The position numbers and the translations under genes are program-made. A DNA stretch of 64,000 nt from Stenotrophomonas maltophilia (GTDB lineage Bacteria > Pseudomonadota > Gammaproteobacteria > Xanthomonadales > Xanthomonadaceae), in assembly GCF_900186865.1 (NCBI RefSeq), contig NZ_LT906480.1:3366001-3430000 (forward strand), in the 5' to 3' direction. The notes under the pieces are model-generated. The model was given only the letters and a program-made list of their open reading frames with translations. It ran no database searches and had not been told where the DNA came from. Below, piece after piece: positions 12,853 to 64,000 of this stretch. The stretch's first letter is position 1, and each line of letters begins with the position of its first letter.

Positions 12853-12876
12853 CGGACGAACAGCAGAAAGCTCCGG

Positions 12877-12978: not shown

Positions 12979-13033
12979 GGCCGCCAATCTTTGCATGCGG
13001 CCGGGGCCGACGCAAGGGGCCGGGGTCGCAGAA

Positions 13034-49245: not shown

Positions 49246-50325
49246 GTGGCAACCTGGATCACCACCCCCGCCGAGCTGGAAGCGTACTTCCAGCAGCGCC
49301 CGACCCGCATCGGCCTGGACACCGAATTCATCCGTGAACGCACCTACTGGCCGCAGCTGGCCCTGGTGCAGATGGCGGTCGGGCAGGACATCCTGCTCAT
49401 CGACCCGCTGATCCCCGGCATGACCGAGGCGCTTGCGCATTGGCTGGCCGATGAATCCATCACCAAGGTAATGCACAGCGCCAGCGAAGACCTGGTTGCC
49501 TTCAAGTGGGCCTGCGGCGTGCTGCCGCGACCGCTGTTCGACACCCAGATCGGGGCATCGCTGGCCGGCATCGGCGGCGGTATGGGCTACCAGAAGCTGG
49601 TGGCGGAGATCACCGGAGTGGCGCTGGCCAAGGGCGAGACCCGCTCGGACTGGATGCGCCGCCCGCTGTCCGAGTCGCAGCTGCAGTACGCCGCCGACGA
49701 TGTCGAGCACCTGTTCGCACTGCACGACGCCATTGATGCCAGGCTGCAGGCGCTCGGCCGCCAGCAGTGGTTGCACGACGATGGCGAGCGCCTGCTGGCC
49801 AGTGTCGCCAACGATGAAGATCGCTGGCCGCACCTGGCGATGCGCTCGGCACAGTTCCTTGATGACGCCGCGCAGCACCGCCTGTTGCGCCTGCTGCGCT
49901 GGCGTGATGTGCAGGCACGCAGCAGCGACCGCCCGCGAAGCTGGATCCTGGACAACGAACTGGCCGCCACTCTGGCGCGCACGCCTCCGGCCGACGAGGC
50001 AGCGCTGGGCAAGCTGTTCGAGCAGTTCCCAAAGGCACCGCGCAAACTGGCCGGCGCCGTGTGGCAGGCGCTGTCCACGCCGCTGGCCGACGAAGCCGAC
50101 GCGCCGCTGGCGCTGCCGGCCAACGACAGCAACAAGCAGGCGCTGAAGAAGCTGCAGGATGCCGTGGCCGAACGCAGCCGCGAACTGGGACTGCCAGATG
50201 GCATCCTTGCCTCGCGCAAGCACCTGGAAAGCTATCTGGAACGTCGCCAATGGCCCGCCGCACTGGCCGGCTGGCGCCAGCAGGAACTGGAGTCGCGCCT
50301 GCAGGCGCTGCTGCCGGCGAACTAG
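49246..50325 (+). CDS. rnd: Ribonuclease D
   Basis: A 359-residue 3'-5' exoribonuclease of tRNA maturation, with a GTG start. DEDD motifs include GLDTEFIRERTYW at about 18-30 and the region YAADDVEHLFALH. An HRDC domain lies at about 205-285. The stop is TAG. Length matches E. coli RNase D (375). Confidence 0.94.
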   Translation: MATWITTPAELEAYFQQRPTRIGLDTEFIRERTYWPQLALVQMAVGQDILLIDPLIPGMTEALAHWLADESITKVMHSASEDLVAFKWACGVLPRPLFDTQIGASLAGIGGGMGYQKLVAEITGVALAKGETRSDWMRRPLSESQLQYAADDVEHLFALHDAIDARLQALGRQQWLHDDGERLLASVANDEDRWPHLAMRSAQFLDDAAQHRLLRLLRWRDVQARSSDRPRSWILDNELAATLARTPPADEAALGKLFEQFPKAPRKLAGAVWQALSTPLADEADAPLALPANDSNKQALKKLQDAVAERSRELGLPDGILASRKHLESYLERRQWPAALAGWRQQELESRLQALLPAN

Positions 50326-50362
50326 CAACCCGCATCGGCCGCCTCACGGGGCGGCCCTGCCA

Positions 50363-50790
50363 ATGCTCGACAAGGACATTGCTGCATGCCTGCATGGCCC
50401 TCTTCCGGCATATTGCGATGGACGATCGTCACGCTGCTGGCCGGCGGCACCCCTGCATGGATCGCAGCAGCCAGCTCAACGCCTACGCGGCACTGACGGG
50501 CGGGCTGGACCTGGCCCGTTCGGTTCACTACCTCGCGCTTTCGGCACGCCTGATCGAACAGCCCCCCGCTGCCGGCGCAGGACAAGCTCGAACCCTGGCT
50601 GCATCCGCACGCCCTGATGCACGGCTATTTCCCGGAATCGAGGCGTAGAGACAGGGCCAGGGCACACTCGCCTACCGGCCCGAGCTGCTGCTTGCCTTTC
50701 CGCTGCACATGGACGATCCGCAGCGCGAACGCCTGTTCCGGGTGACGGGATTCACCTTCAAGCCTCCTGCTGAATGCCACCGACATGGCA
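50363..50790 (+). pseudogene. Unrecognised decayed ORF
   Basis: Protein-like sequence continues across frame changes: SSQLNAYAALTGGLDLARSV (about 50464-50523) and RLIEQP in one frame, then QDKLEPWLHPHALMHGYFPE (about 50579-50638) in another, then LAYRPELLLAFPLHMDDPQR and ERLFRVTGFTFK (to about 50764). An N-terminal piece MPAWPSSGILRWTIVTLLAG resembles a signal peptide. I do not recognise the family. At least two frameshifts would be needed to restore it, so it is probably a dead gene. Confidence 0.4.
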
Positions 50791-50863
50791 GCCGCATGTC
50801 CTGCTTGCCGCCGCTAACGACCGCGCTTCTAATGTCCAGCCTCGTACTCGCTGGATTGCAGCA

Positions 50864-52936
50864 ATGACAAACGGATTTGCAAAAGACGGGCTTTCCCCCG
50901 AAGACCTTGCCTGGCGCGTGCAGGCGCGCACTGCGCTGCAGGAACGGCGCTATGCCGAACTGGATGCGTTGCTTGCTCCACATGAGCTGGCCTGGCTGCA
51001 GGGAGAGAATGCGCTGCCCGGCATCCGCTGGCGGCTGCGCAACCTGCACGACGCCACGCTGACGCTGGAAGCCCGCCTGCAACAGGCCCAGCAGTGGGCC
51101 TCGGCCGCCCCCGACAGCTACTACGCCTGGCTTTGCCTGGGCGCCTGCTGGCAGGACGCTGCCGGCGAACTGCGCAGCGCCGATGTTGCAGCACTGGTCG
51201 AAGACAGCCAGTGGCTGGCGGCGCAGCTGGCCCGCGACCATGCCGTGCACGCCTACCTGCAGGCGATGCCGCTGTCGCCACGACCTGCGTTGGCGCTGGA
51301 TGGCATCAAGCGCATCACCAGCTACCTGCGCGAACCGAACTGGCTGCGTGCGCTGCAGGCCGGGGAACCCGCCGCATCCGATGACGCCACGCTGGCCGAG
51401 CACTACCCTCAAGCCTGGCCAAAGGCATTGCAGCTGCTGTCGCGCTTCGGCACGCCGTTGCAGACGCTGCCGGATACGCTGCCCCCGTTGCTGCGCGAGC
51501 GCAGCCAGGACGATTTCGACGCACCACTGGCGTACTGGATGCGCCTGGTACTGGAGCAGCGCCCGGACGATCTGGCCACGCTGGAGGACACCCTGTACTT
51601 CCTGTACCCGCGCTGGGGCGGCAGCCATGAGGCGATGGAGAACTTCATCGAGGGTAGCTGGTGCCGTGGCCTGGAACTGGCGCAGAGCAACGCGCTGCGG
51701 TGGCACAAGGAGCAGGACTGGATGGGCGATCTGCCCCACCGTGAGGATGCCGAGGCCGTGGCCGCGCACGAGCGCGCCTACACGCAGATCCTCGACTGGC
51801 ACCTGGACCGCCACCTGCGCGCGCAGGTGCTGGCCCAGCGCGCCGGGCTGCGCTACCGTCTTGGCCGCGTTGAAGACAGCGAAGGCGTCGTGCAGTGGGA
51901 TCAGGACCACATGCAGGCGGTGCTTGAAGATCTGCAGCAGGCATGGACATTGGACCGCGATGTGGTCCTGCATGAGGGGCTCAGCAACCTCGAGGCCTGC
52001 ACCTCGTTCGCCCATGTCGACGGTGCCGAAGCACTGTTCGCACAGGTGGTGGACTATGCCGCGCGCGAAGGCGATTCGGCGATCGGCCTGCTCTGGGCCG
52101 CCACCGCCATCGAGCATGGCCTGCTCGGCCAGGCCAGCGACCCGACACGCGCCAGTGTCCTGCTGCAGCGCGCGTTGAAGCTTGCGCAGCAGGACGACAC
52201 CTCGGCGGTGACGTTCGCCGCCAATCTGTTCTGTGATGTTTCGCAAGCCGCAGGCCTGTCGCTGCTGCAGCGCATGGCGGACGATGGCGACGCCGGCGCG
52301 ATGTCGGCGCTGTGCGACCTGTACAAGGGCCGCCTCGGTGGCCGCGACCAACCGCAGTTCGCCGATGCGGAAAAGGCCGCCTACTGGCAGGAGCGTGCGG
52401 TGGAAGGCGGCGACCTGATCGCCACCTACAACCTGGCCGTACGCCTCGTCGCCGCAGGCGGCGCGGAGAATGAAGCGCGTGCGCGCGAGCTGTACCTGCG
52501 CTGCCTGGATGAGGCCGAGGCCGGCGAGCGCGTGTGGGGCCCAACCTGCCGCAACCTGGCCTGCCTGGCATTCGATGGCCGGAACGACGCGCACAAGCGC
52601 GAAGCGGTCGAACGCGCCTTGATTCCGCTGTGGTGGCGCGGCGACGACGACGACAAGCTGTGGGCTGCCGGCTATCTGGCCGACATCTACCACTTCGGTA
52701 ACGGCGTCCCGGCCAATGCATTCCTCGCCCTGACCTGGCTGCAGCGTGCCAGCGAGATCGATCCGGAGTATGTGGACGTGGTACGCATGGCACCGCTGAT
52801 CAACGGCGAAGGCCGCTGGTTCGGTGCCAGCCGCGCACGCAAGCAGCAGGAACAGGACCGGCAGCAGGTGGACAGCGCCACCTGGGCCCTGACCTTCGGC
52901 CAGCGCAGCCAGGACAGCAACCTCACTGCGGTCTGA
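50864..52936 (+). CDS. SEL1-like repeat protein
   Basis: A 690-residue helical protein rich in Ala, Leu and Trp, with no signal peptide. SEL1/TPR-type helical repeats are seen in the C-terminal third (…AGAMSALCDLYKGRLGG…AAYWQERAVEGGDLIATYNLA…WAAGYLADIYHFGNGVPANA…). The first 400 residues have no motif I can name. ATG at 50864 is preferred over 50774 because the extra codons lie in the decayed-ORF region. SEL1 proteins act as scaffolds. Confidence 0.75.
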   Translation: MTNGFAKDGLSPEDLAWRVQARTALQERRYAELDALLAPHELAWLQGENALPGIRWRLRNLHDATLTLEARLQQAQQWASAAPDSYYAWLCLGACWQDAAGELRSADVAALVEDSQWLAAQLARDHAVHAYLQAMPLSPRPALALDGIKRITSYLREPNWLRALQAGEPAASDDATLAEHYPQAWPKALQLLSRFGTPLQTLPDTLPPLLRERSQDDFDAPLAYWMRLVLEQRPDDLATLEDTLYFLYPRWGGSHEAMENFIEGSWCRGLELAQSNALRWHKEQDWMGDLPHREDAEAVAAHERAYTQILDWHLDRHLRAQVLAQRAGLRYRLGRVEDSEGVVQWDQDHMQAVLEDLQQAWTLDRDVVLHEGLSNLEACTSFAHVDGAEALFAQVVDYAAREGDSAIGLLWAATAIEHGLLGQASDPTRASVLLQRALKLAQQDDTSAVTFAANLFCDVSQAAGLSLLQRMADDGDAGAMSALCDLYKGRLGGRDQPQFADAEKAAYWQERAVEGGDLIATYNLAVRLVAAGGAENEARARELYLRCLDEAEAGERVWGPTCRNLACLAFDGRNDAHKREAVERALIPLWWRGDDDDKLWAAGYLADIYHFGNGVPANAFLALTWLQRASEIDPEYVDVVRMAPLINGEGRWFGASRARKQQEQDRQQVDSATWALTFGQRSQDSNLTAV

Positions 52937-52944
52937 AGCAACGA

Positions 52945-52975
52945 AAAGGGCGGCCCGGTAATCCGGGCCGCCCTT
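52945..52975. terminator. Bidirectional terminator
   Basis: A long stem aaagggcggcccg / cgggccgcccttt with loop GTAAT-like is flanked by an A-rich left side and T at the right. It serves the SEL1-like gene and possibly the convergent TonB-receptor gene. Confidence 0.8.
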
Positions 52976-53024
52976 TGCATTCCAGCAGTGCGATGGCGGG
53001 ATGCTCCGCCGTCGCGACAGCGCA

Positions 53025-55355
53025 TTACCAGTTCATGTTCAGCGAGACACCGACGGTACGTGGTTCGTTGTAGACCGCGGCCATGTAGTTCTCGATCACA
53101 CCCTTGAGGTTCTTCTCGTTGGTGATGTTGCGCGCGAACAGCGCCACTTCGTAGGCACCGTAGTTGCCCGAGTAGCCGATCTTCAGGCCACCCTCGAAGT
53201 CGCCCTTGGAGTTGAACTCCTTGCTGTCGTACAGCACGAAGCTGGTGTAACCCTGCTTGTTCCAGTCGGTGGACACGAACATGGTGCCCGCGTCGCTGAC
53301 CGGGAAGTCGTAGCGGGCGGCCAGGTTGACGTTGTACTTCGGCGCGTTCGGCAGCGGGTTGCCGTCGATCTGGGCGAAGGTGTTGGCACCGACCTTGATG
53401 GTCGGGTCATTCACCGTGCACACCACCTGGCCGTTGAGGCCGCAGACCTGCGCGTACACGCGCTTGTCCTTGATCTCGCTGTGCAACAGGCTCAGGCCGG
53501 CGCTCAGGGTCAGGTTCGGGATCGGGCGCAGCTCCATGTCCGCTTCGAAACCGTAGGCCTTGGCCTTGTCGGCATTGAACAGCACGCCATTGCCGTCCGA
53601 ATCGTTGCCGTTGAGCTGGATGTCGTTGACGGTGTAGGTGAACGCGGTGGCGTTCAGGCGCAGGCGGTTGTCCCACAGGCTGCTCTTCACGCCCGCTTCC
53701 CAGGACAGGATGGTCTCGGAATCGGCGGTGGTGAAATCGGCGTTGAACACCGCCGAACGCCCCTGGATGGTCGGGCCGCGGAAGCCACGCGCGACCTTGG
53801 CGTAGACGCTCACGTCCGGCGTGATCTGGTACATCGCGCTCAGATCCCAGCTCGGGGTGGTGTCGGACATCCTGACGTCGGTGCGGCCCTTGTAGGTGAC
53901 CACGCCAGCGGCAGTGTCAGCGGTCTTCAGCAAGCGGGTGTGCTTCTCGTCCTTGGTCTGGCGCAGGCCGGCGGTGACGGTGAACTTGTCGGTGAAGGCG
54001 TAGCTGATCTGGCCGAAACCGGCCCACGAGGTATTCTTGTTGCGCAGGCGCACCCAGTTGTTCGGGTTGCGGGCCGCGCCCTGCAGGAACCACGCGCGCT
54101 GGTAGAAGTCGGTGGTGTCGCTGCCGTTGAAGTAGAACGCACCGGCCTGCCACTGCAGGGCGCTGTCATCATGGCTGGCCAGGCGGAATTCCTGGGTCCA
54201 CTGGTCCAGGTCACGGATGCGGCCCATCGACTGGCCGTAGCCGTTCGGCACGCCGTTGACCGGGAAGTTCACCGCGGCGCCGCCGTCGGTGTCGCCGCGG
54301 CTGTAGCCGGAGGTGGTTTCGTAGGCGGTGATCGAGGTGAAGTCGATCGCGCCGAAGTCGTAACGCGCCTTCACCGAGCCGCCGTAGGTCTTGTAGGCCT
54401 GCGGGTTGTTGTCGGCTTCGTCGTAGGCGACCTTGTCACGCGGCACGTCGGTCTTGTTCGAGCCCTTGGTCAGCGCACCGCGCAGGAACAGGGTCGAGGT
54501 GCCCTCGTAATCACGGGCGTGGGCCGAGGCCAGGATCGAGAACTGGTCGCTCGGGGTCAGCAGCAGCTGCGCGCGTACGTTGCGGTCATCGAAGCCGCCC
54601 ATGGCGTTCTTCTTTGGGCTGACCGTGCCGTCGGCGCTCGGGCCGCGGTAGGTGTTGTCGACGTAGTCGTCGCGGTGCTGGTACAGGGCCGACACGCGGA
54701 ACGAGGCGATGTCGTTGATCGGGCCGCCGAAGCCGCCGTCGATCGACACGCTGTTATAGGTCGCATAGCTGGCACTGACGCGGCCGGTGTAATCCTGGGT
54801 CGGCTTCAGGGTGTCGAACTTGACGATGCCGGCGGTGGTGTTGCGGCCGAACAGCGAACCCTGCGGGCCGCGCAGCACTTCCACCTGGTCGACGTCATAG
54901 ACCGGGTTGGACTTCAGCACCACGTGCTCCAGCACCACGTCGTCCTGGATGATCGACACCGGCTGCGAGGCACCCAGGTAGAAGTCGATGTTGCCCAGGC
55001 CGCGGATGTAGAAGCGCGGGAAGATGCGGCCGGTGGTGGTTTCCGCATACAGGCTCGGCACGCGGCCGGACAGCGCCAGCAGGGTGTCATCGCCGCCGGC
55101 GGTGAAGTCGCGCATGCGCTCGCCCTGCACCACGCCCACCGAGACCGGCACTTCCTGCAGGTTCTGCTCGCGGTGTTCGGCGGTCACGGTGATCGTGTCC
55201 AGCCCGGTCGGGGTCGGCGCGCTGTCCTGCGCGGCGGCACCGAAGCTCCCGACCAGAGCCAGGCCGGCACAGGCCAGGGCCAGCGGATGGCGGCGGAAGG
55301 AAACGAAGGAAGACGACAGACCCGACAGGCGGCGGGAATCGGAATGGGAGGGCAT
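53025..55355 (-). CDS. TonB-dependent outer-membrane receptor
   Basis: A 776-residue receptor with a signal peptide (to about residue 42), a TonB-box-like start (LDTITVTAEHREQNLQEVPV), a plug domain and a 22-strand barrel. Plug landmarks are QVEVLRGPQGSLFGRNTTAG. The family imports siderophores, vitamin B12 or glycans; this one cannot be assigned a ligand from sequence. The C-terminus ends in Trp. ATG at 55355 gives a normal signal peptide. Confidence 0.93.
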   Translation of the reverse strand: MPSHSDSRRLSGLSSSFVSFRRHPLALACAGLALVGSFGAAAQDSAPTPTGLDTITVTAEHREQNLQEVPVSVGVVQGERMRDFTAGGDDTLLALSGRVPSLYAETTTGRIFPRFYIRGLGNIDFYLGASQPVSIIQDDVVLEHVVLKSNPVYDVDQVEVLRGPQGSLFGRNTTAGIVKFDTLKPTQDYTGRVSASYATYNSVSIDGGFGGPINDIASFRVSALYQHRDDYVDNTYRGPSADGTVSPKKNAMGGFDDRNVRAQLLLTPSDQFSILASAHARDYEGTSTLFLRGALTKGSNKTDVPRDKVAYDEADNNPQAYKTYGGSVKARYDFGAIDFTSITAYETTSGYSRGDTDGGAAVNFPVNGVPNGYGQSMGRIRDLDQWTQEFRLASHDDSALQWQAGAFYFNGSDTTDFYQRAWFLQGAARNPNNWVRLRNKNTSWAGFGQISYAFTDKFTVTAGLRQTKDEKHTRLLKTADTAAGVVTYKGRTDVRMSDTTPSWDLSAMYQITPDVSVYAKVARGFRGPTIQGRSAVFNADFTTADSETILSWEAGVKSSLWDNRLRLNATAFTYTVNDIQLNGNDSDGNGVLFNADKAKAYGFEADMELRPIPNLTLSAGLSLLHSEIKDKRVYAQVCGLNGQVVCTVNDPTIKVGANTFAQIDGNPLPNAPKYNVNLAARYDFPVSDAGTMFVSTDWNKQGYTSFVLYDSKEFNSKGDFEGGLKIGYSGNYGAYEVALFARNITNEKNLKGVIENYMAAVYNEPRTVGVSLNMNW

Positions 55356-55550
55356 GAAATGCTCTGAGGAGGCGTCCGTGCGGCCTGCGCGAGCCGGGCG
55401 GCAAAAAGGAGGAGAACTGCGCAAGCCGCCATTATCCCCCAAATTGTTACGATTTCGTTGCGCGGCGCCCAAACCCGGCGAAACAAGCGGTTTCGGCACA
55501 GTCACCCGCTGATGTGCCTCGCGTCTCGACACGAAATTCCTTTGATCGGC

Positions 55551-55579
55551 TTGGCAAGCGGCAGGCGCTTGGCTAGACT
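55551..55579 (+). promoter_or_regulatory. Promoter of tRNA-Ala
   Basis: TTGGCA (55551-55556) and TAGACT (55574-55579) are separated by 17 bases, 13 bases before the tRNA. Confidence 0.75.
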
Positions 55580-55592
55580 GAAGCCCTGCCGT

Positions 55593-55668
<76 letters not shown>

Positions 55669-55680
55669 CTATGCAGAAGA

Positions 55681-55717
55681 ACCCGTAGATCTCCGTGATC
55701 TGCGGGTTTTTCTTTTC
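55681..55717 (+). terminator. Terminator after tRNA-Ala
   Basis: The stem acccgtagatc / gatctgcgggt with a short loop is followed by TTTTTCTTTT, 12 bases after the tRNA CCA end. Confidence 0.85.
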
Positions 55718-55729
55718 AGCGCCGGCAAC

Positions 55730-55900
55730 TCAGGCCGGCTCCTGGTCGCCGTCCTTGCGCTGCGGGCCGCGTGAGTGCGCATCGCGCACCTGTTGGTCGC
55801 GCTGCCCGGGCCGCTGCTTGGCCACATCGTCCTGCTTCCTGTCCTGGCGGCTTTCCTGGACGCCCTGCTTCGGGTCCTGATCCTTGTCTCGCTCGTTCAT
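55730..55900 (-). CDS. Small hydrophilic protein (56 residues)
   Basis: A 56-residue ORF, MNERDKDQDPKQGVQESRQD onward, made almost entirely of Gln, Asp, Arg, Lys, Glu and Gly. GGGAG lies 8 bases before ATG 55900, which supports translation. The composition suggests an intrinsically disordered protein of the type linked to desiccation or general stress. No domain is recognised and no function is claimed. Confidence 0.6.
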   Translation of the reverse strand: MNERDKDQDPKQGVQESRQDRKQDDVAKQRPGQRDQQVRDAHSRGPQRKDGDQEPA

Positions 55901-56061
55901 CGAAAACTCCCTCGTCGGCGGCAGGCCAACGCTGTGCACCACGCTAGAGGCTGGCGGGTAATCCACAGGTCAGTCCTGCGCCAACGTCATGTGCAGGCAC
56001 TGGCTTGCCGCCACTGCCCCCGCGCAGCCAGAATCCGAGGAACAACGCCCACCGGTACGCC

Positions 56062-56547
56062 ATGCCCTCTTCTGCCCAGCGCGCAGCACACGCCGTGCCG
56101 ATGATCATTGATGCGACCGACGGCAGCATCCAGCTCGGCAATCTGCCGACTCTGATCGGCCCCACCCTGGCACGGGATGAGGCGCGTGTCGCCTTCGTCA
56201 CGCTGATGCATGGCGAGCGCGATGTCGGCACCGGCTACGTCTGGCTCAGCCTGCACCGGCTCAGCCTGGGCGGCGCGCCCGCTGGCATCAGCCTGTGCTT
56301 CCACGGGCAACAGCTCGACATGGTGACGATGGGCGTCGATCTACCCGGTGCAACGTTGGAAGACGGCTGGCCGACCCAGGCCGCGATCGATGCCGAAGTC
56401 ACCTTCATGCGCCGCACGCTGGGTGCGGCGCTGGGGCGCAAGCTGGCCGGCGGCCACGCCCGCTTCGACTGGGGCGAGGCATGGGCCCGCTTCGATCCGA
56501 AGGGCTTCATGGCCAGCAGCGGTATCCGCTACCGGCCACGTCGGTGA
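56062..56547 (+). CDS. Hypothetical protein
   Basis: A 161-residue protein from ATG 56062; ATG at 56101 is an alternative that removes 13 residues. No signal peptide or TM is seen. The core (MIIDATDGSIQLGNLPTLIG…) looks like a compact alpha/beta domain, and it ends in a basic RYRPRR tail. I do not recognise the family. Codon use matches the chromosome, so it is likely a real resident gene. Confidence 0.65.
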   Translation: MPSSAQRAAHAVPMIIDATDGSIQLGNLPTLIGPTLARDEARVAFVTLMHGERDVGTGYVWLSLHRLSLGGAPAGISLCFHGQQLDMVTMGVDLPGATLEDGWPTQAAIDAEVTFMRRTLGAALGRKLAGGHARFDWGEAWARFDPKGFMASSGIRYRPRR

Positions 56548-56553
56548 CCGTGC

Positions 56554-57315
56554 TCAGGTGCGGGTGATCGATACCCCGCCCTCCACACGCATCGCGGTTC
56601 CGGTAACGAAACTGCTTTCATCGCTGGCCAGGAACAGCGCCGCGTTGGCGATCTCCTCCGGCTCGGCCATGCGCTTCAGTGCGTGCAGCGAGCGCACGAA
56701 GTCGCGCGCATCGCCGGTCGGTGCCGCCTGCCGGCCCATCTCGGTATCGGTGCCACCGGGCAGCAGCACGTTGCTGCGCACGCCGCGCGCACCGTATTCG
56801 GCGGCGATCACCTGGCTCAGGCCGATCAGCCCGGCCTTGCTCGACGCATAGGCCGCCATGCCGGGGAAGCCCACCGTGTGGCCGACGAAAGTGCCAACGA
56901 ACACCAGCGAGCCGCCCCCGCGCGCCAGCAGTGCCGGCAACTGCGCGCGTGCGGCATGGAAGGCCGCATCCAGATTGGTCGCCATCACCTCGCGCCAGGC
57001 GTCCACCGGGAACTCCGCTGCCGGCACGCCCGGCCCGAGCATGCCGGCATTGTTGAGCGCGATGTCCAGGCCACCAAATGACTGCCGGGCCAGATCGACC
57101 AGTGCCGGGGCCGTGGCCGGATCCGCCACGTCGGCGGCATGCACCACCACCTCGCCGCCGGCGGCACGGATCTGCTCGGCCAGCGCCTGCAGCGGCTCCG
57201 GCCGCCGTGCGTTGAGCACCAGCTTCGCCCCTTCGGCGGCGAAGCGCAGCGCGGCGGCGCGGCCGATGCCGGCGCTGGCTCCGGTGATGAGGGCGATCTT
57301 GTTGTTCAGGCGCAT
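56554..57315 (-). CDS. SDR family oxidoreductase
   Basis: A 253-residue short-chain dehydrogenase with TGASAGIGRA (residues 11-20), NNAGMLGPG and the YASSK catalytic pair. The C-terminal pattern VTGTAMRVEGGVSI is that of classical SDRs. ATG at 57315 is selected as the only start in line with the Rossmann motif. It has its own position between convergent and divergent neighbours, so context gives no substrate. Confidence 0.9.
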   Translation of the reverse strand: MRLNNKIALITGASAGIGRAAALRFAAEGAKLVLNARRPEPLQALAEQIRAAGGEVVVHAADVADPATAPALVDLARQSFGGLDIALNNAGMLGPGVPAAEFPVDAWREVMATNLDAAFHAARAQLPALLARGGGSLVFVGTFVGHTVGFPGMAAYASSKAGLIGLSQVIAAEYGARGVRSNVLLPGGTDTEMGRQAAPTGDARDFVRSLHALKRMAEPEEIANAALFLASDESSFVTGTAMRVEGGVSITRT

Positions 57316-57447
57316 GGTGGCAGTACCGGTTGTGAAGTGGCCGCCACGATGCCGCGCATCTCCCCTGCCGACACTCCGTTTCCGGGCCTGGCCCGTCGGT
57401 GCAGGAAACGGAGTTTCCGCAGCACCGGCACGTGCCAGAATCCGGCC

Positions 57448-58290
57448 ATGGACAGTACCGCCACCACCGCCTTCGATGCCCGCGTCGAACGGGTCTGCCG
57501 CCACCTTCAGGCGAGCCTCGACGAACCTTCGCTGCAGGAGCTGGCCGACATCGCCGGCTGCAGCCCGACGCGCCTGCATCGTCTTTTCAAGCAGGCCACC
57601 GGGCTGACCCCCAAGCAGTACGCCGCCGCGCTGCGCGCCGACCGCCTGCGCACCGGACTGGAACAATAGGAGCGCATCACCGATGCCTTCCACGATGCCG
57701 GCTTCGGTTCCAGTGGACGCTTCTACGAGAACGCACCGAAGTTGCTGGGCATGACTCCCAAGCAATGGCGCGCAGGTGGTCGCGGCGAAGTCATCCACTT
57801 CGCGCTTGCCGAAAGCTCACTGGGCAGCGTGCTGGTGGCCAGCAGTGCCACCGGCGTGGTTGCGATCCTGCTCGGCGACGATCCGGAGACGCTGCTGCAG
57901 TCATTGCAGCAACGCTTCCGCCAGGCCGAACTGGTCGGTGCCGACCAGGGCTATGAGCAACTGGTGGCACAGGTGGTAGGCCTGGTCGAGGATCCTTCGC
58001 GAGGCGCCACGCTGCCGCTGGATATCCGCGGCACCGCGTTCCAGCAACGGGTGTGGCAGGCACTGCAGCAGATTCCGCGCGGGCAGACTGCGTCGTATGC
58101 GGATGTCGCCGCGCGCATCGGCGCCCCGCGCTCGAGCCGTGCGGTTGCCCGCGCATGCGCGAGCAACCCGCTGGCGGTGGCGGTGCCCTGCCACCGCGTG
58201 GTGCGCCGCGACGGCGACCTGTCCGGCTATGCGTGGGGCGTAGCGCGCAAGCGCGAACTGCTGCGCCGGGAAAAGGCCTCGACTGCCTGA
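57448..58290 (+). pseudogene. ada: Ada-like regulator/O6-methylguanine-DNA methyltransferase interrupted by an in-frame TAG
   Basis: The 281-codon frame encodes an AraC-type HTH domain (about 10-105) and a methylguanine methyltransferase domain (about 115-275) with the active site PCHRV (Cys248). A TAG at 57667-57669 is codon 74, between the two helix-turn-helix motifs (…RTGLEQ[stop]ERITDAFHD). The reading frame is otherwise intact. Translation may restart at ATG 57742 (MLGMTPKQWRAGG) and give a lone methyltransferase of 182 residues, which could still repair DNA. It lacks the N-terminal Cys-zinc domain of E. coli Ada even when complete. Confidence 0.85.
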
Positions 58291-58292
58291 AG

Positions 58293-58354
58293 CAGGTGCC
58301 GACCTTGATCGGCACGCTCAGCTTCCGGCAGGTGCCGACCTTGGTCGGCACACC
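58293..58354. repeat. Two direct copies of a SMAG-like hairpin
   Basis: CAGGTGCCGACCTTGATCGG (58293) and CAGGTGCCGACCTTGGTCGG (58329) are direct repeats, each a gtgccgaccttggtcggcac hairpin, in the gap between the convergent ada-like and MDR genes. They match the arm of the 2110 repeat. Confidence 0.65.
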
Positions 58355-58363
58355 ACCAAGCCC

Positions 58364-59389
58364 TCAATCCAGCTTCACCACCAACTTGCCGAAGTTGCGC
58401 CCCTGCAACAGCCCGAAGAACGCCTCCGGCGCATTCTCCAGCCCTTCCACCACATCCTCGCGGTACTGGATGCGACCTTCGCGCAGCCACTGCCGCATCT
58501 CGCGTTCGAAGTCCGGCCACAGGTGGTTGAAGTCGTGCACGATGAAACCACGCACGGTCAGGCGCTGGCGCAGGATCTGGCTGAACAGTGCGGGCAACCG
58601 GTCCGGGCCGGGCTGCTCGATGCCCCGCTCGTTGTAGGTGGCGATGGTGCCGCACACCGGAATGCGGGCGAAGTCGTTGAGCAGCGGCAGCACTGCATCC
58701 AGCACATGGCCACCGACATTCTCGAAGTACACGTCGATGCCGGCGGGCACTGCCGCGCGCAGTTGATCGGCAAAATCAGCCGCGCGATGATCCAGCGCCA
58801 CGTCCACGCCCAGCGTCTGCAGGTAGGCACGCTTGGCTTCGCCACCGGCGATGGCGACCACGCGCGCGCCCTGCAGCTTGGCCAGCTGGGCGACGGTCGC
58901 GCCCACCGGCCCGGTCGCGGCAGCTACCACCAGCGTCTCACCCGGCTTCAAACGGGCGATTTCGTGCAGGCTGGAATAGGCGGTGAAGCCGGGCATGCCA
59001 TATACCCCCAGCGCGGTACTCAGCGGCAGTCCGGCCGGATCCAGCCGACGCCCCAGCGCCTTGGCCGGCAGCACTGCGTGGGTCTGCCAGCCACCCGGCG
59101 CCAGCAGCAGATCTCCGACCGCCACACCTTCGGCGCTGGATCGCAGCACTTCGGCCACGGTCTGCCCTTCCATCACCGCGCCCACCGCCACCGGCGCGGC
59201 GTACGACGGGCCCTCGTCCATGCGTCCGCGCATGTACGGGTCCAGCGACAGGTAGCGGTTGCGCAGCAGCACTTCGCCATCCCCCAATGCCGGCAGCGCA
59301 GCCTGTTCCAGGCGGAAGTTGGCCGCGCTTGGTGCGCCCTGCGGACGCGAGGCCAGCACGATACGGGAGGTAGCGAGGGAATCGGACAT
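58364..59389 (-). CDS. NADP-dependent medium-chain oxidoreductase (CurA/leukotriene-B4-dehydrogenase-like)
   Basis: A 341-residue zinc-independent MDR enzyme. NADP-binding segment AATGPVGATVAQLAKLQGA, and the substrate-domain signature LSLDPYMRGRM are typical of this group, which reduces alpha,beta-unsaturated ketones. ATG at 59389 gives the family N-terminus (MSDSLATSRIVLASRPQG). An ATG nine residues further upstream exists. Confidence 0.92.
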   Translation of the reverse strand: MSDSLATSRIVLASRPQGAPSAANFRLEQAALPALGDGEVLLRNRYLSLDPYMRGRMDEGPSYAAPVAVGAVMEGQTVAEVLRSSAEGVAVGDLLLAPGGWQTHAVLPAKALGRRLDPAGLPLSTALGVYGMPGFTAYSSLHEIARLKPGETLVVAAATGPVGATVAQLAKLQGARVVAIAGGEAKRAYLQTLGVDVALDHRAADFADQLRAAVPAGIDVYFENVGGHVLDAVLPLLNDFARIPVCGTIATYNERGIEQPGPDRLPALFSQILRQRLTVRGFIVHDFNHLWPDFEREMRQWLREGRIQYREDVVEGLENAPEAFFGLLQGRNFGKLVVKLD

Positions 59390-59657
59390 GGTGACCGGCT
59401 CTGCTGTTGCCAGCATCAGGAAAGGAATGCCGACACTACGCCGCAACGATCGCCGGCAACGGCCATGAAAACAGCGTTCCATGGACCGGCGCGGCGCGGG
59501 TCCGGCGCAGCCCTTGGCCTTGCAGCTTTGGCGATCGCGGCGATCTGCTGATTTCCACCGCAGACGATGATCGACTGACCACGCCCCCGTCCCACAACGG
59601 AGGATCAAGCACTTGCGAGCCCGCAGACGGCAATGTGAAGAAATCTTGGCAAAACGC
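59390..59657. other. Intergenic stretch before tRNA-Phe
   Basis: Nothing with coding or RNA character is seen in these 268 bases upstream of the tRNA-Phe promoter. Confidence 0.5.
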
Positions 59658-59725: not shown

Positions 59726-59801
59726 GGCCGAGTAGCTCAGTTGGTAGAGCAGGGGATTGAAAATCCCCGTGTCGGCGGTTCGATTCCGTCTTCGGCCACC
59801 A
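59726..59801 (+). tRNA. tRNA-Phe(GAA), copy 1
   Basis: A 76-base cloverleaf with encoded CCA. Acceptor GGCCGAG pairs with TTCGGCC (one G-U at the base). The anticodon stem GGGGA/TCCCC holds loop TTGAAAA, anticodon GAA. It is identical over its whole length to the copy at 59874. Confidence 0.97.
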
Positions 59802-59873: not shown

Positions 59874-59949
59874 GGCCGAGTAGCTCAGTTGGTAGAGCAG
59901 GGGATTGAAAATCCCCGTGTCGGCGGTTCGATTCCGTCTTCGGCCACCA
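59874..59949 (+). tRNA. tRNA-Phe(GAA), copy 2
   Basis: Identical in sequence to the copy 148 bases upstream (start to start). It has its own terminator but no obvious separate promoter, since copy 1 has a terminator in between. The spacing and identity fit either a tandem duplication or restoration of a tRNA gene by an integrated element. Putative island genes begin 264 bases downstream. Confidence 0.97.
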
Positions 59950-60212: not shown

Positions 60213-61163
60213 TCACGCCAACACAGCCGCCGCGCAAGGCATGGAGTACAAGCCTGCGCGTTGCTGCGTGACGACGAGTGCTCCGTAGGCCGCCAGCCTC
60301 GCCTCGTGCTCCGGCTTGCCCTTGTCCTTCGACTTGATCTTGAACAGGTCAATTGGCTTGTCGCTCTTCTGGCCGGCACGCTGCATGACCCTTTCGCCGT
60401 CCACCTCGCCCCCCTTGAACGACCACAGCGACTCGAACACTTTGGCCTGACCATCGGTGAACCGGATCGGCGTTGCCTGCACGTCCGGCAGCGTCGCCCA
60501 CTTGAAGTCCGCCGAGAATGGCCCGTTCACAGGTGCGGCCGGATCGGCCACTGCTGGCGCTACAGACGGTATCGAAGGGATGAAGGCGATCCCGCCGCCA
60601 TAGAACGTGAATCGTTCTTCCAGCGCCAGCCATTCCACACCGGAGCAGAAGGGCGATCCACGGGTCGTGCGCGGCCTGGGGGTGATTACCCGGATGTTGC
60701 TTCCCGCCACCCGAACACGATCCAGCAAGGACGGCTCATGCAGCACTCTCGTCAGCTCTCGGGCCAGCACGACCGGCGAGCTGCGGGCATTGCCGAGCCG
60801 CCAAGCACCGTCGCCCAAGTCATCGATGTCGTCGCGGCTCTCGATGTCGAGCGCGAGGCGCATTTTCTGCCGCAGCCAGTCTTCGTCCAGGGCCAACGCC
60901 GCACCGTCGATTGCCTCGACAGGAACCTGGCCACACTCCGGGCACCGGCAGATTCGACCGCCCCGTCCATCGCCCCAGACCTGCGCCCGATGCTGCTGAC
61001 AGTGGGGACAGAGCACAAAAAACTGATCCACCACTGTTGGCCTGACGGTTTTGCCGAGCATAGACAAAGCAGATACCTCGCGTGGCGACAGCGTGGCCCG
61101 CAGCACCGGCGTGCCGCCTGCGAACAGTCGGCAAACCAGGGCCCAGGCATCGTGCGTCGTCAT
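60213..61163 (-). CDS. Unrecognised protein with zinc ribbon and C-terminal winged-helix-like domain
   Basis: A 316-residue protein. A zinc-ribbon-like Cys set is visible: CPHC (Cys52, Cys55) and CRCPEC (Cys72, 74, 77). The region 110-195 (DDIDDLGDGAWRLGN…GSNIRVITPRP…GVEWLALEERF) is well ordered but unknown. Residues about 231-307 (PIRFTDGQAKVFESLW…PIDLFKIK…GALVVTQQRAGLYSM) have the pattern of a winged helix. It starts three bases after the stop of the 411-residue gene, so the two form an operon. Codon use is less GC-rich than the chromosome upstream. No family is assigned. Confidence 0.8.
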   Translation of the reverse strand: MTTHDAWALVCRLFAGGTPVLRATLSPREVSALSMLGKTVRPTVVDQFFVLCPHCQQHRAQVWGDGRGGRICRCPECGQVPVEAIDGAALALDEDWLRQKMRLALDIESRDDIDDLGDGAWRLGNARSSPVVLARELTRVLHEPSLLDRVRVAGSNIRVITPRPRTTRGSPFCSGVEWLALEERFTFYGGGIAFIPSIPSVAPAVADPAAPVNGPFSADFKWATLPDVQATPIRFTDGQAKVFESLWSFKGGEVDGERVMQRAGQKSDKPIDLFKIKSKDKGKPEHEARLAAYGALVVTQQRAGLYSMPCAAAVLA

Positions 61164-61166
61164 TGG

Positions 61167-62402
61167 TCAGTCCTCGAAAGCGGATGAAGAACTGACTGGG
61201 TCGGTCTCCGGCGGCAACTCCTGGGCGCTGAGGGTCTGGCCCTTCTGCAAGATGCCCACCGCAACCAAGTAGCCTTCCAGCTGCGCCTGCATCTTGGCGT
61301 CGAACTTGTGCAGGTTCAGCCGCCCTTTGCTGGTCACTTCGATGGTGACCACCTTGGGGCGAGTCCTGCCCGGCTCGGGTGGGTAGTAGAGATTTACCTG
61401 CGCCGCCGTCACCGCCCACTGCCCCTCCAGCGGGCCCGGCAGCTTTTCCTTCAGCAAATCGTGCACCGAGCGTTGCTGGCTGGATTGCATCGCCGTGCAT
61501 TCGATCTTCAGCGCCGTGTCAGGGCTGAGCAGGGTGAGTGCCTTCAACTGAACCATCGAGAAGCCGTCCTCGAACGCATCCGGCACATCGAACCCGGTGC
61601 GCAGCATCGACAGATCCAGAGTCGGCGACTTGATCTTGTGAGCGCTTGCTTTCACGCCCAGCACATGTTCCGCAAAGGCCTCGACCAGCATTTGCTGATA
61701 CTTTGCGCCGCCGCGCACCAGCGTGCGCACCACACCGGTGGACTTGGCGTACTCCAGCACCATGTGGATGTTGGGGTTGCCGACCCGGCGTTTCAGGGTC
61801 GCTCCCTCGAACTCCAGACGCAGCATCGCCATGTCCTTGACATGGACCGACAGCAGGAACACGCCCGGGCTGCGCTCGACCAAGTGCGCCACGCTGCCGT
61901 CTCCGCATTGGAGTTCGCGCTTGTAGAAGGCCGAGATGGCGTGACGCAACGCGGTCAGATTGGCATCCGAACCGTTCGGTTGGCGTTTCAGGCCAAGATC
62001 GTATTGCTGTGTCTGTTGCCCATGCTGTTCCCAAAAGCTGAAGTCATAGGCACGCTCGAACAGTGCCGGGTGGTGGACGTAGAGCCAGAAGGAACGGTGG
62101 ATGTCGCTTGCACACAGCGCCAAACCCGCAAGCGCAGCACCATCGGCCACGGCCGCCTCAAACATCGCCTGCTTACCAGCCGCATCGCCCAACTGAACGC
62201 TGGCCATGAGGTTGGCCGTCATCCGGTCGCGGGCAGCAATGTCGGGCCAGACTTTGACCGCTTCGACCAAAAACTGACTGGTCTCCGGTGTGTCATCCCA
62301 GGCAAAGCCATCGGGCACTGGCAGGCTGTGGGTGGTCAGGAAGTCGCGCAGCGTGGCGTCCACCGGCAGCTCGAGCATCACGTCGACAAAGGTCTTCTTC
62401 AT
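61167..62402 (-). CDS. Unrecognised 411-residue protein of a tRNA-linked island
   Basis: ATG at 62402 has AAAGGA nine bases upstream; an ATG further up is rejected because it would overlap the promoter region. The N-terminal half (about 1-160) looks helical. The C-terminal half appears as a beta-rich alpha/beta region (LLSVHVKDMAMLRLEFEGAT, NLYYPPEPGRTRPKVVTIEV). No TM, signal peptide, nucleotide-binding loop or catalytic motif is recognised. It is the first gene of a two-gene operon driven by a strong promoter with an operator-like sequence at its start site. It is divergent from an XRE/ImmA pair, an arrangement often seen in regulated defence or mobile-element modules. Confidence 0.8.
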   Translation of the reverse strand: MKKTFVDVMLELPVDATLRDFLTTHSLPVPDGFAWDDTPETSQFLVEAVKVWPDIAARDRMTANLMASVQLGDAAGKQAMFEAAVADGAALAGLALCASDIHRSFWLYVHHPALFERAYDFSFWEQHGQQTQQYDLGLKRQPNGSDANLTALRHAISAFYKRELQCGDGSVAHLVERSPGVFLLSVHVKDMAMLRLEFEGATLKRRVGNPNIHMVLEYAKSTGVVRTLVRGGAKYQQMLVEAFAEHVLGVKASAHKIKSPTLDLSMLRTGFDVPDAFEDGFSMVQLKALTLLSPDTALKIECTAMQSSQQRSVHDLLKEKLPGPLEGQWAVTAAQVNLYYPPEPGRTRPKVVTIEVTSKGRLNLHKFDAKMQAQLEGYLVAVGILQKGQTLSAQELPPETDPVSSSSAFED

Positions 62403-62506
62403 CTTGATCGTCCTTTCTGGATCGGCGTCGAAGGTCTGCGACCGATGTACGGACTGCACTGGCCAGCGACTAGGTTACTGAACACGCACCTCGCACAAGT
62501 AAAGCA

Positions 62507-62517
62507 GCGAGATACAA
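62507..62517 (-). promoter_or_regulatory. Operator-like half-site at the start of the minus-strand operon
   Basis: The 11-base sequence gcgagatacaa is the exact reverse complement of the sequence at 62577-62587. It lies 6 bases downstream of the -10 of the minus-strand promoter, where a bound repressor would block initiation. Confidence 0.6.
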
Positions 62518-62522
62518 GCGCA

Positions 62523-62551
62523 ATTCTGAACCTCAGATTTCCGCTTGTCAA
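62523..62551 (-). promoter_or_regulatory. Promoter of the two-gene minus-strand operon
   Basis: On the minus strand a consensus TTGACA (62551-62546) is followed after 17 bases by CAGAAT (62528-62523), about 120 bases before ATG 62402. Confidence 0.65.
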
Positions 62552-62576
62552 TCAAAGCGGCACATCTAGACGTTAT

Positions 62577-62587
62577 TTGTATCTCGC
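62577..62587 (+). promoter_or_regulatory. Operator-like half-site at the XRE gene promoter
   Basis: The sequence ttgtatctcgc lies just before the -10 hexamer (62591) of the XRE gene, in the spacer where a bound repressor would exclude RNA polymerase. It is the inverted partner of 62507-62517; centres are 70 bp apart. Confidence 0.6.
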
Positions 62588-62590
62588 AGC

Positions 62591-62596
62591 TATACT
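62591..62596 (+). promoter_or_regulatory. -10 element of the XRE gene
   Basis: TATACT, close to consensus, lies 50 bases before ATG 62647. No good -35 is seen at the expected distance, so this promoter is probably weak. Confidence 0.5.
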
Positions 62597-62646
62597 AGCG
62601 GTCTTGTTTTTGTTAACTGACTGTTTTCCCCTACAGGAGCATCGCT

Positions 62647-62976
62647 ATGGCTTCAGCGTTCGGAGCACGCCTGCGACGCTTACGCGAGGCGAAGAAATTG
62701 ACCTTGCAACAGGTCGCCGACGAAGTCGGCTGTACCAAGGCGTATATATGGGAACTGGAGATGAAGGACGGCCAGCGTCCCTCCGCTGAACGGGTCCAGG
62801 CCTTGGCCAGGGTGCTGGGCGTGACGATGGAGGACATCATGGGCGAGCCCATTGAACAGGTTCCTCAGGCCAGTCCAGAAGATGTGGCCTTCTTCCGCGA
62901 GTACGCTGGAATGACGGACGAGGAGAAGGATCGTTACCGTCAGGCACTCAAAATCATGTTCCCCGACAAGAACTAA
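62647..62976 (+). CDS. XRE-family helix-turn-helix repressor
   Basis: A 109-residue protein whose residues about 6-62 form an XRE (lambda Cro/C1-like) HTH (LRRLREAKKLTLQQVADEVG…IWELEMKDGQRPSAERVQAL). The rest is a short acidic helix. CAGGAG precedes the ATG. It is followed after 13 bases by an ImmA/IrrE protease gene, and such pairs typically work as repressor and anti-repressor, the protease destroying the repressor on a signal. It most likely binds the 11-bp repeats upstream. Confidence 0.9.
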   Translation: MASAFGARLRRLREAKKLTLQQVADEVGCTKAYIWELEMKDGQRPSAERVQALARVLGVTMEDIMGEPIEQVPQASPEDVAFFREYAGMTDEEKDRYRQALKIMFPDKN

Positions 62977-62989
62977 GGCGGTCTGACAA

Positions 62990-63919
62990 TTGAGCTCATC
63001 CCAGCCCCTAACCGGTTCCATCGCGGCCAGCACCGTCTTGAGATGGTTGCGGGCGTGGCACGCCGACGGCATGCCGGATGCCGTGGATCTGGAAGTCGTC
63101 CGGCAAATGCTTCCAGAGACGCCTTACGGCAAAGGGGTGCGGGAGATCAAGGCCCCGATGGTGCTGGACATCAATAGCTGCGAAGGCATGTTGGTGCGCA
63201 ACCCACAGGACACCGCAGAGTGGGGCATCTTCTATAACGGCAAGGCAAACCCCGAACGCCAGCGTTTCACCATCGCTCACGAACTGGGCCACTTCATCCT
63301 TCACCGCGATCAGCGGCAAAGTTTCAACTGCGACAAGGAAAGCGTGTACTCCGGCGCTGACACTATCCGTGTCATCGAACGTGAGGCGGACGACTTTGCC
63401 AGCAACCTGCTGATGCCTGGCGACTTGCTGCGCGAGTGGATCTCGAACCAGCGCATCGACTTGCATGTCCTGAGCGCCCTTGCCAAACGGTTCCAGGTGT
63501 CGTTCGAGGCGCTATGCATTCGGTTCATCAAATTCACCACGCAGCGGGCAATCCTTGTCTATTGGGACAACGGCTTCGTGAAGTACGAATGGCGCAGCAG
63601 CAGCGCGGTCAAGACGCGCGCCCGCATTCGGCGCACTGACGATCCGCAGGAACCATTACCCGGCACCCTGGCTGCTGATTCCACCGTTGAGCAGGAGTGG
63701 GATGGCACGGAGATGTCTGCCGCGATCTGGTGCCCGGAGGAGGCACCACACATGAAGTTGCGCGAGTTCAAGCACAGCTACACCACAGGAGATCGCGTCC
63801 TGACCCTTTTGCTACTGGAAAGTGCTGAACCACGGTCATGGGATCGGTCTTGGCAAGACGGCGAGAGCTTTGACAGCTTCGATCAGTTCGTCTCGAACGG
63901 GCAATTGCCAGTACGGTGA
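62990..63919 (+). CDS. ImmA/IrrE-type zinc metalloprotease
   Basis: A 309-residue protein with a TTG start (AAGG 11 bases upstream). The metalloprotease motif HELGH is at residues 97-101 (TIAHELGHFILH), with the third-ligand region IEREADDFASNLLMP at about 129-143. The family cleaves XRE-type repressors (ImmA on ImmR, IrrE/PprI on DdrO, CapP on CapH). The C-terminal 130 residues are an extra domain with no recognised motif, perhaps a sensor. It overlaps the next ORF (GTGA). Confidence 0.9.
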   Translation: MSSSQPLTGSIAASTVLRWLRAWHADGMPDAVDLEVVRQMLPETPYGKGVREIKAPMVLDINSCEGMLVRNPQDTAEWGIFYNGKANPERQRFTIAHELGHFILHRDQRQSFNCDKESVYSGADTIRVIEREADDFASNLLMPGDLLREWISNQRIDLHVLSALAKRFQVSFEALCIRFIKFTTQRAILVYWDNGFVKYEWRSSSAVKTRARIRRTDDPQEPLPGTLAADSTVEQEWDGTEMSAAIWCPEEAPHMKLREFKHSYTTGDRVLTLLLLESAEPRSWDRSWQDGESFDSFDQFVSNGQLPVR

Positions 63920-64000
63920 GTCCCTCGATGACAGGCTTGCCGATCCAACCCATAGATGAAGAACTGCAGACCTTGCAACGCGAGGTGCAACGAATGCTGG
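63916..64000 (+). CDS. Partial ORF downstream of the protease gene
   Basis: A frame opens with GTG at 63916, overlapping the protease stop, or ATG at 63928, and runs to the window end (MTGLPIQPIDEELQTLQREV…). The visible 24-28 residues look like the start of a helix-rich protein. Coupling to the protease gene implies the same transcript. Nothing more can be said from 85 bases. Confidence 0.55.
   Translation, partial: MSPSMTGLPIQPIDEELQTLQREVQRML

Follow-up and report, generated by a model that had tools for sequence, protein, structure and literature searches.

A CapH/CapP-Type Regulatory Pair Facing a Near-Constant Two-Protein Operon: A Probable Induction Switch of a tRNA-Phe Prophage in Stenotrophomonas maltophilia

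Introduction

What does a repressor-protease pair control when it faces a two-gene operon of unrecognised proteins? This question is raised by a locus of Stenotrophomonas maltophilia, in which the genes for proteins of 411 and 316 residues, referred to here as P411 and P316, are divergent from the genes for an XRE repressor and an ImmA/IrrE protease. The locus lies at the end of the window, i.e., the whole 64,000-nucleotide stretch of DNA analysed (G000:C1:3366001-3430000 of a single-contig 5.0 Mb genome). A first-pass annotation had regarded the two proteins as the effector part of a signal-triggered system, in the manner of the operons controlled by CapH/CapP beside CBASS (cyclic oligonucleotide-based antiphage signalling system). 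All of its open reading frames (ORFs) were recovered in place, including the 3-base gap between the minus-strand P411 and P316 genes.

The analysis described here points to a prophage. The locus is probably a prophage induction switch, the output of which would be a new two-protein DNA-binding complex. The computed features bearing on this reading are the prophage boundaries, the conserved module, the operator placement, the exchange of repressors, the gene fusions, and the predicted folds. Positions within the element (el) are counted from G000:C1:3425601 (window = el + 59600); the chromosome was fetched as far as G000:C1:3505600, and genes there were called by a simple script.

Results

P411 and P316 Lie at One End of a Prophage

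The segment carrying P411 and P316 forms the left end of a prophage of about 70 kb that is inserted at the tRNA-Phe 3' end. In three element-free genomes of the same genus (L204, L205, and L206), window position 59949 is joined straight to el 70357 (G000:C1:3495957), the two sides overlapping by 6 bases, and the last ~6 nucleotides of the second tRNA-Phe are common to the right junction. These junctions define an element of about 70,007 bp (G000:C1:3425950-3495956). In six same-genus genomes (G023, G663, G667, G215, G668, and G669), the match to the query ends at its base 550, which corresponds to window position 59949. The segment had been described as starting just after tRNA-Phe, and the tRNA predicted by ARAGORN, with the attachment site at its 3' end, bears this out. 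The lower GC content claimed for the segment is a real drop, from 0.61-0.71 per 500 bases at 50000-59499 to 0.54-0.66 from 59500 on, but the two ranges overlap.

From the left, the genes run in the order P316, P411, CapH, CapP, cargo ORF, DUF2924-like gene, and serine recombinase, followed by early genes that matched PHROGs as a phrog_2480 protein, an anti-repressor Ant, a Sak4-like annealing protein, and a primase. The PHROGs matches further to the right comprise terminase, portal, head protease, major head protein, tape measure, and tail genes; a lysozyme-like gene was recognised by eye. The recombinase and the DUF2924-like gene are 69% and 58% identical, respectively, to annotated genes of L010. 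The element thus combines recombinase, terminase, portal, capsid, tail, and replication genes with attachment junctions, as expected for a prophage. A stand-alone CBASS-like island was rejected, given the prophage context and the lack of any PADLOC match. No conjugative module was noticed among the called genes of the element, for which no profile search was made.

One genome (G090:C1) holds two P411 copies, at 2570062-2571270 and 2599870-2601078, of equal score and identity, as well as a partial third match, which suggests duplication or repeated acquisition of the prophage.

P411, P316, and CapH/CapP Form a Near-Constant Module

The association of P411, P316, and CapH/CapP is more than chance. 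In IMG/VR, P411 was found in 24 loci, all of which encode P316 and 23 of which encode CapH and CapP. In GTDB, 105 stretches encode P411, and the best 80 were kept. CapH and CapP were present in all 64 of these that could be tested, i.e., those with a match from the P411 start and at least 1.5 kb of upstream sequence. P316 adjoins P411 in 78 of the 79 GTDB loci with downstream sequence; the exception, L188, is interrupted. The neighbourhood search that the first-pass annotation had proposed supports the association with CapH/CapP in the near family; among distant relatives, some have CapH/CapP, some have other repressors, and in some no adjacent one was found, as described below.

The same result was obtained starting from the recombinase, which had 205 matches in viral sequences, the best 80 of them being retained. 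Both P411 and CapH/CapP were present in 24 of the 25 contigs with at least 5 kb of upstream sequence, and the remaining contig (L302) starts 260 bp before capH. With 1.2-5 kb upstream (20 contigs), both were seen in 4, P411 only in 1, CapH or CapP only in 10, and neither in 5; with less than 1.2 kb upstream, none of 35 contigs showed P411, CapH, or CapP. A scan based on the primase was of little use for co-occurrence. Of its 78 new loci, 46 lacked the recombinase, P411, and CapH/CapP, and the others showed recombinase with P411 (15), P411 only (5), P411 with CapH/CapP (4), recombinase with CapH/CapP (3), or recombinase only (5); the eight with the recombinase and without P411 are uninformative, because less than 5 kb precedes the recombinase. 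These results indicate that, where testable, P411-P316 is a near-constant pair of one serine-recombinase prophage family.

A tRNA 3' end faces P316 within 900 bp in 44 of 72 loci (Phe 22, Ala 18, Arg 2, and Lys 2). P411 is 98-100% identical across genera, e.g., Pseudomethylobacillus, Zoogloea, Thauera, and Cupriavidus, suggesting recent and wide spread. The distances of P411 correlate with those of P316 (Mantel r = 0.93), CapH (0.77), CapP (0.78), and the recombinase (0.63), values that reflect common inheritance rather than selection, since close relatives are included. P411 and two distant relatives had no match in a collection of isolated phages (50,697 records), and among plasmids neither P411 nor the relative from L094 had a match, with one partial match for P316.

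Predicted CapH Operators Flank the P411 Promoter

The XRE protein matched PADLOC capH (E = 7.6e-25) and Pfam HTH_31 (8.9e-16) and HTH_3 (8.1e-12), and the adjacent M78 protease matched PADLOC capP (8e-57) and the solved CapP structure 7t5t (1.4e-40 over residues 64-279), which identifies the two as a CapH/CapP-type pair. In an alignment of the capH-P411 intergenic region from 25 non-redundant sequences out of 71, the window included, two conserved 18-bp pseudo-palindromes were found in opposite orientation, with the consensus AGTATAGCnnCGAGATAC and AGTAAAGCnnCGAGATAC, in which single bases vary. They are predicted to be operators at the P411 and capH promoters (Table 1). In L186, L187, and L192, the left half of the P411-side operator has diverged.

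A position weight matrix (PWM) of the operators scored 31.1 and 30.0 at operators 1 and 2, respectively, values that are high because the matrix includes these sites; the informative part is the lack of others. The PWM scan revealed no comparable site elsewhere in the element: the runner-up in the fetched 80 kb, located inside a BREX (bacteriophage exclusion)-regulator gene, scored 12.7, and the best site in 60 kb of chromosome scored 9.5. For 14 distant CapH loci, the best inverted pair beat all 40 shuffles in only two (L081 and L082), so that the two-operator layout there is suggestive, not proven.

In other systems, CapP performs a cleavage of CapH that is activated by single-stranded DNA (ssDNA), as reported in PMC13373217. 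The CapH/CapP type of the regulators and the predicted operators at the P411-P316 promoter make it likely that the pair controls this promoter by signal-triggered derepression, in line with the control proposed by the first-pass annotation. Among the families searched, the HTH_3 proteins of the element are CapH and an XRE-M78 protein in the right-arm cargo, and no Peptidase_S24 protein was found. This search for repressors was confined to HTH_3 and S24, and the element also has AlpA-like and Ant-like genes.

Predicted Folds of P411 and P316 Point to DNA Binding

Both proteins were modelled with AlphaFold2, a check that had been suggested at the outset (P411, pLDDT 84.0 and pTM 0.70; P316, pLDDT 86.8 and pTM 0.61). 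In a Foldseek search with P411, the four matches in the PDB with E ≤ 1e-3 were CENP-N/Chl4 (7pkn_N and 8ovw_N) and RdgC (2owl_B and 2owy_A), with a probability of 0.97-1.00; the N-terminal CENP-N chain 7bxt_M matched with E = 9e-3 and a target TM-score of 0.50. No RexA entry was among the 50 P411 matches listed. P411 is thus predicted to be an RdgC/CENP-N-fold protein, a fold common to lambda RexA: RexA, RdgC, Iml3, and Chl4 share one DNA-binding fold according to PMC11077077 and, for Chl4/Iml3 and RdgC, also PMC4080450.

P316 contains zinc-ribbon-type cysteines (C52, C55, C74, and C77), which are invariant or near-invariant, followed by a middle domain. Its fold matches to winged helices are singly not significant, yet they are consistent and agree with the C-terminal helix-wing pattern of the model, so that P316 is predicted to consist of a zinc ribbon, a middle domain, and a C-terminal winged helix. 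As modelled, the folds of the pair point to DNA binding and not to an enzyme.

Consistent with the earlier statement that no cyclase, nuclease, or toxin domain is visible, no PADLOC family matched P411 or P316 up to E = 1, or nine distant-relative proteins up to E = 0.5. P411 had no Pfam match, including RdgC (PF04381) and DUF4747, and its NCBIfam search was fruitless; P316 had no Pfam, PADLOC, or NCBIfam family above threshold; and PDB sequence searches with either protein gave no significant match. Neither protein has a likely membrane segment (maximum mean hydropathy of P316 over 19 residues, 1.26), and profile comparison revealed no similarity between the two. The hhalign probability of P411 was at most 0.2% against a rough RdgC alignment (676 columns) and 0.1-0.2% against DUF4747, the latter a rough profile of four ORFs from six loci, one of which (L474) is perhaps in the wrong frame. 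As a control, the P411 branches A3 and A2 matched each other with 97.9% (E = 5.1e-13).

The RdgC-like matches (2owl_B and 2owy_A) raise the alternative that the pair is a recombination or excision factor, in which P411 would act as an RdgC-like clamp, either to limit RecA or to guide phage DNA through recombination, and P316 as its loader, or that it is the directionality factor for the serine recombinase. Serine recombinases require a directionality factor, and the early genes adjoining the pair in relatives include the Sak4-like annealing protein. However, P411 lacks sequence similarity to the rough RdgC profile, and the pair also occurs with tyrosine-integrase-like and AlpA-like genes in the L089 and L266 elements (by eye), so that the serine recombinase is no fixed companion of the pair. 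We regard this explanation as the least likely of those considered here.

Relatives of the Pair Have Exchanged Repressors and Precede Early Genes

Relatives of P411 were found in 8 of 299 genomes of the order, 16 of 369 of the class (phrog_37634), and 33 of 398 of the phylum (alignment A4). In 20 loci fetched from the phylum sample, the neighbouring repressor was CapH/CapP (7), XRE+M78 (3), LexA/S24-like (3), or WYL (2; in L270, it lies about 3.8 kb from P411 with another gene between). The S24, WYL, and L274/L276 proteins were called by Pfam and that of L277 by similarity. In 19 loci fetched earlier, the repressor was CapH/CapP in 8 and a fused XRE-M78 protein in 2 (L090 by Pfam and L092 by similarity). 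CapH/CapP genes are divergent from P411, whereas the S24, XRE+M78, and WYL genes precede P411 on its own strand.

The partner gene is retained throughout. Of 39 P411 loci scanned, 29 have a next gene that encodes at least 200 residues, and in all 29 this gene is a P316 family member (21 by the original profile and 29 after one iteration), including the S24, XRE+M78, and WYL (L270) loci. Just four other genes matched the P316 profile, in L268, L273, and L283, where the P411/P316 regions are cut or fused. In seven loci (L380, L388, L390, L395, L423, L438, and L283), P411- and P316-like regions occur in one polypeptide of about 720-775 residues, the P316 region being marginal in three and clear in four, for which a small search gave E values of at most 5e-5. 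These fused relatives suggest that P411 and P316 work as one complex.

In 18 fetched loci, some of them near-identical, P411 is seen together with the recombinase or DUF2924 and with ORF163 or Sak4. In 13 of them, P411 is followed within 4 kb on its own strand by ORF163 or Sak4 (widest in L280, 3.7 kb); the exceptions are L081-L083, L269, and L284. Distant pairs in satellite-like islands precede AlpA-like and primase-like genes (by eye). This pattern of exchanged repressors and adjoining early genes is a better fit for the first output of an induction switch than for exchangeable defence cargo.

Two further arrangements were observed by the way. In L088 (4363-9044), a distant P411/P316 pair directly precedes a multiubiquitin/E1 (Bub-like) cluster (by eye). 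In L267-L269, L271, and L273, a DUF2188-like gene of about 80 residues (Pfam 1e-23 in L271) lies between the CapH-type operator region and P411.

The main rival to the induction switch is that P411-P316 is a Rex-like exclusion or abortive-infection pair, i.e., a prophage defence effector that would be silent under CapH and freed when CapP senses ssDNA from phage or damage. According to PMC13373217, CapH/CapP are controllers of immune operons, and CapK and CapS precede the DUF4747/CarolAnn prophage system; in PMC11077077, CarolAnn gp44 is treated as RexA-like, and lambda RexA, which has the RdgC fold, excludes T4rII together with RexB. In addition, distant pairs adjoin restriction-modification-like genes in the satellite-like islands L093, L094, L098, and L099 (by eye), and the element itself carries BREX and Wadjet genes. 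However, the pair matched no PADLOC family, includes no membrane partner, has no similarity to the rough DUF4747 profile, precedes early genes in 13 of the 18 loci, and is, where testable, near-constant in the phage family, unlike the adjoining cargo slot. We consider such an exclusion role rather unlikely. Induction and exclusion need not exclude each other, since RexA is reported to do both.

Overall, the regulatory part of the first-pass proposal largely stands, whereas a role of P411-P316 as a CBASS-like defence effector is not supported, given the lack of a PADLOC family, the near-constancy in one prophage family where testable, the frequent position ahead of its early genes, the several repressor types, and the DNA-binding-like predicted folds.

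Conserved Half-Sites Lie Ahead of the Early Operon

Three half-sites with the invariant cores GGCGAA ... TTCGCCA ... TTCGCCA lie ahead of the early operon in all 16 aligned prophages (from 64 sequences, the first 16 that were less than 90% alike). The arm bases that flank the half-sites have changed together in L333. Among 100 shuffles, 0-3 equalled the inverted pair formed by the first two half-sites. The array contains no CapH operator. P411-P316 could bind this array, as could the AlpA-like product of the first early gene. A conserved GC-rich hairpin at about L002 7856-7875, after the recombinase region (-16.2 kcal/mol, z -2.7), was rejected as a regulator site; T-rich sequence follows the hairpin, which is more likely to be a terminator.

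Exchangeable Cargo and Other Features

The gene that starts at 63916 had been described as coupled to the protease. It does overlap the protease stop, but it is exchangeable cargo, outside the switch: the slot between CapP and DUF2924 ranges across 66 loci from about 250 bp, where it is empty, to 6.1 kb, and its contents are unrelated, which rules the gene out as part of the system. At full length (290 residues, L002 4316-5188; end at window-equivalent 64788), its product has an RNxxxH HEPN-like motif and an OST-HTH/LOTUS domain (Pfam OST-HTH 3e-9). Such a HEPN/LOTUS-like gene occupies the slot in 22 loci, and in 8 the occupant was judged by eye to be DUF262-like. Many of the genes are singletons; catalase-like and Dps-like, mercury-transport-like, and trypsin-like genes were also recognised (by eye). 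In a near-identical prophage of another genome, the slot carries a gene resembling class A beta-lactamases (L100:9240-10175, minus strand; Pfam Beta-lactamase2, 2.4e-44).

The right arm carries BREX genes (BrxL, PglZ, PglX in two overlapping ORFs, BrxC, and a WYL regulator) and Wadjet genes (JetA, JetC, and JetD matched), and its XRE-M78 protein adjoins a PIN-like gene (by eye). The BREX/Wadjet stretch, at G000:C1 about 3468900-3492400 (el 43313-66813), lies beyond the window and marks the element as a defence-rich prophage. Elsewhere in the window, the Xoo5 small RNA of Xanthomonadaceae was found at 12857-12980 on the minus strand (Rfam RF02242, 107 bits).

Table 1. Positions of the genes and predicted sites of the locus, in window coordinates unless stated otherwise
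Feature	Position	Strand	Remarks
tRNA-Phe, first of two	59726-59801		ARAGORN
tRNA-Phe, second of two	59874-59949	+	ARAGORN; 3' end is the attachment site
P316	60213-61163	-	316 aa; partner of P411; last gene ahead of the attachment site
P411	61167-62402	-	411 aa; first gene of the operon; predicted RdgC/CENP-N fold; phrog_37634
Predicted operator 1, P411 side	62498-62515	+	AGTAAAGCAGCGAGATAC; directly downstream of the predicted P411 -10 box
Predicted P411 promoter	62523-62551	-	TTGACA-17-CAGAAT; conserved alignment block between the operators
Predicted operator 2, capH side	62579-62596	-	AGTATAGCTGCGAGATAC; over the likely capH promoter
CapH-type XRE repressor	62647-62976	+	109 aa; PADLOC capH, HTH_31, HTH_3
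CapP-type M78 metalloprotease (M78/ImmA)	62990-63919	+	309 aa; TTG start; HELGH motif
Cargo gene ("third ORF"), start	63916-64000	+	overlaps the protease stop; cut by the window edge
Half-site array	L002 about 7895-7960 (window-equivalent 67495-67560)		from the alignment

Discussion

From these features we infer that CapH binds the operators and is cleaved, that the operon is then derepressed, and that P411 and P316 form a complex with a role in lytic growth. To judge from the operators, CapH would bind the two inverted sites and repress its own gene as well as the divergent P411-P316 operon. DNA damage, in the form of ssDNA, would activate CapP, and CapH would be cleaved, by analogy with other CapP proteins, so that P411 and P316 are made. 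As the folds and fusions suggest, the two may form a DNA-binding complex, in which P411 would clamp DNA by its RdgC/RexA/CENP-N-type fold and the zinc ribbon and winged helix of P316 would recognise the site. The position and conservation of the gene pair suggest that the complex would push the prophage into early lytic expression, replication, or excision, the target perhaps being the conserved half-site array ahead of the early operon. A broader version, which we hold tentatively and consider possible rather than probable, is that P411-P316 represents a new class of lytic-commitment factors in prophages and satellite-like islands, a phage-encoded CENP-N/RdgC-fold clamp that its zinc-ribbon/winged-helix partner brings to particular DNA sites and that is plugged into whichever DNA-damage-sensing repressor was acquired (CapH/CapP, XRE+M78, LexA-like, or WYL).

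Several observations weigh against an induction switch, as does the published control of immune operons by CapH/CapP. The search for a repressor beside P411 came up empty for 5 of the 20 phylum-sample loci, 9 of the 19 loci fetched earlier, and L028, one of the 24 IMG/VR loci; and L151, L171, and L185, which are N-terminally cut matches among the 16 GTDB loci outside the CapH/CapP count, lack CapH/CapP despite long upstream sequence. In the prophage of the window, as in L081-L083, the pair lies at the attachment end, away from the early operon, and in L269 the early gene is on the far side of CapP. The search for other repressors in the element covered HTH_3 and S24 only, and the AlpA-like product of the first early gene could bind the half-site array instead of P411-P316. 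The Foldseek support for P411 is moderate, with query-normalised TM-scores of 0.20-0.29, root-mean-square deviations (rmsd) of 10-18.5 Å, and 9-11% identity, so that the fold match is domain-level at best. In BFVD, one of the seven P411 matches with E ≤ 1e-3 is annotated as an exonuclease (Providencia phage Kokobel1); the others are four uncharacterised phage proteins and two nameless ones, and none explains the function. For P316, the best folds are OmpR/PhoB-type winged helices with E of 0.16 or worse and a target TM-score of about 0.5.

The locus resembles known systems in part. In ICEBs1 and phi105, an XRE repressor and an ImmA protease (ImmR-ImmA) silence the element and the divergent operon is the output; here, the repressor and protease belong to another subfamily and the output operon is a different one. 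The CBASS-associated CapH/CapP likewise form a tandem XRE repressor and M78 protease divergent from the controlled operon, whereas the pair described here resides in a prophage family beside two proteins without a PADLOC match. It has no CBASS, BREX, or Bub gene as a neighbour, and the BREX genes of the element have their own WYL-type regulator gene. As in lambda RexA/RexB and the Rex-like DUF4747 systems (CarolAnn and Sbash), a protein with an RdgC-type fold, predicted in the case of P411, lies beside a prophage repressor, and according to PMC11077077, RexA favours the lytic state of lambda. However, P411-P316 is divergent from the repressor and not co-expressed with it, P316 is predicted to be a soluble zinc-ribbon/winged-helix protein in place of the membrane protein RexB, and P411 does not resemble the rough DUF4747 profile. 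Compared with RdgC and Iml3-Chl4 (CENP-L/CENP-N), to whose fold all four significant PDB matches belong, P411 lacks sequence similarity and has a large N-terminal helical region, a low global TM-score, and a high rmsd. In searches of the open-licence PMC literature, no published description of the P411-P316 pair was found, and searches on DUF2924 and on serine-recombinase/BREX/Wadjet prophages yielded nothing on target.

If the induction switch is correct, CapH/CapP, known from immune operons, would serve a widespread prophage family as its master switch, and DNA-damage repressors would be exchangeable modules common to defence and prophage induction. The fold of P411 would make this phage protein a relative of RexA, RdgC, and the CENP-L/N proteins of the kinetochore. 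A function for phrog_37634 would also come within reach. The operator and half-site predictions make the switch directly testable.

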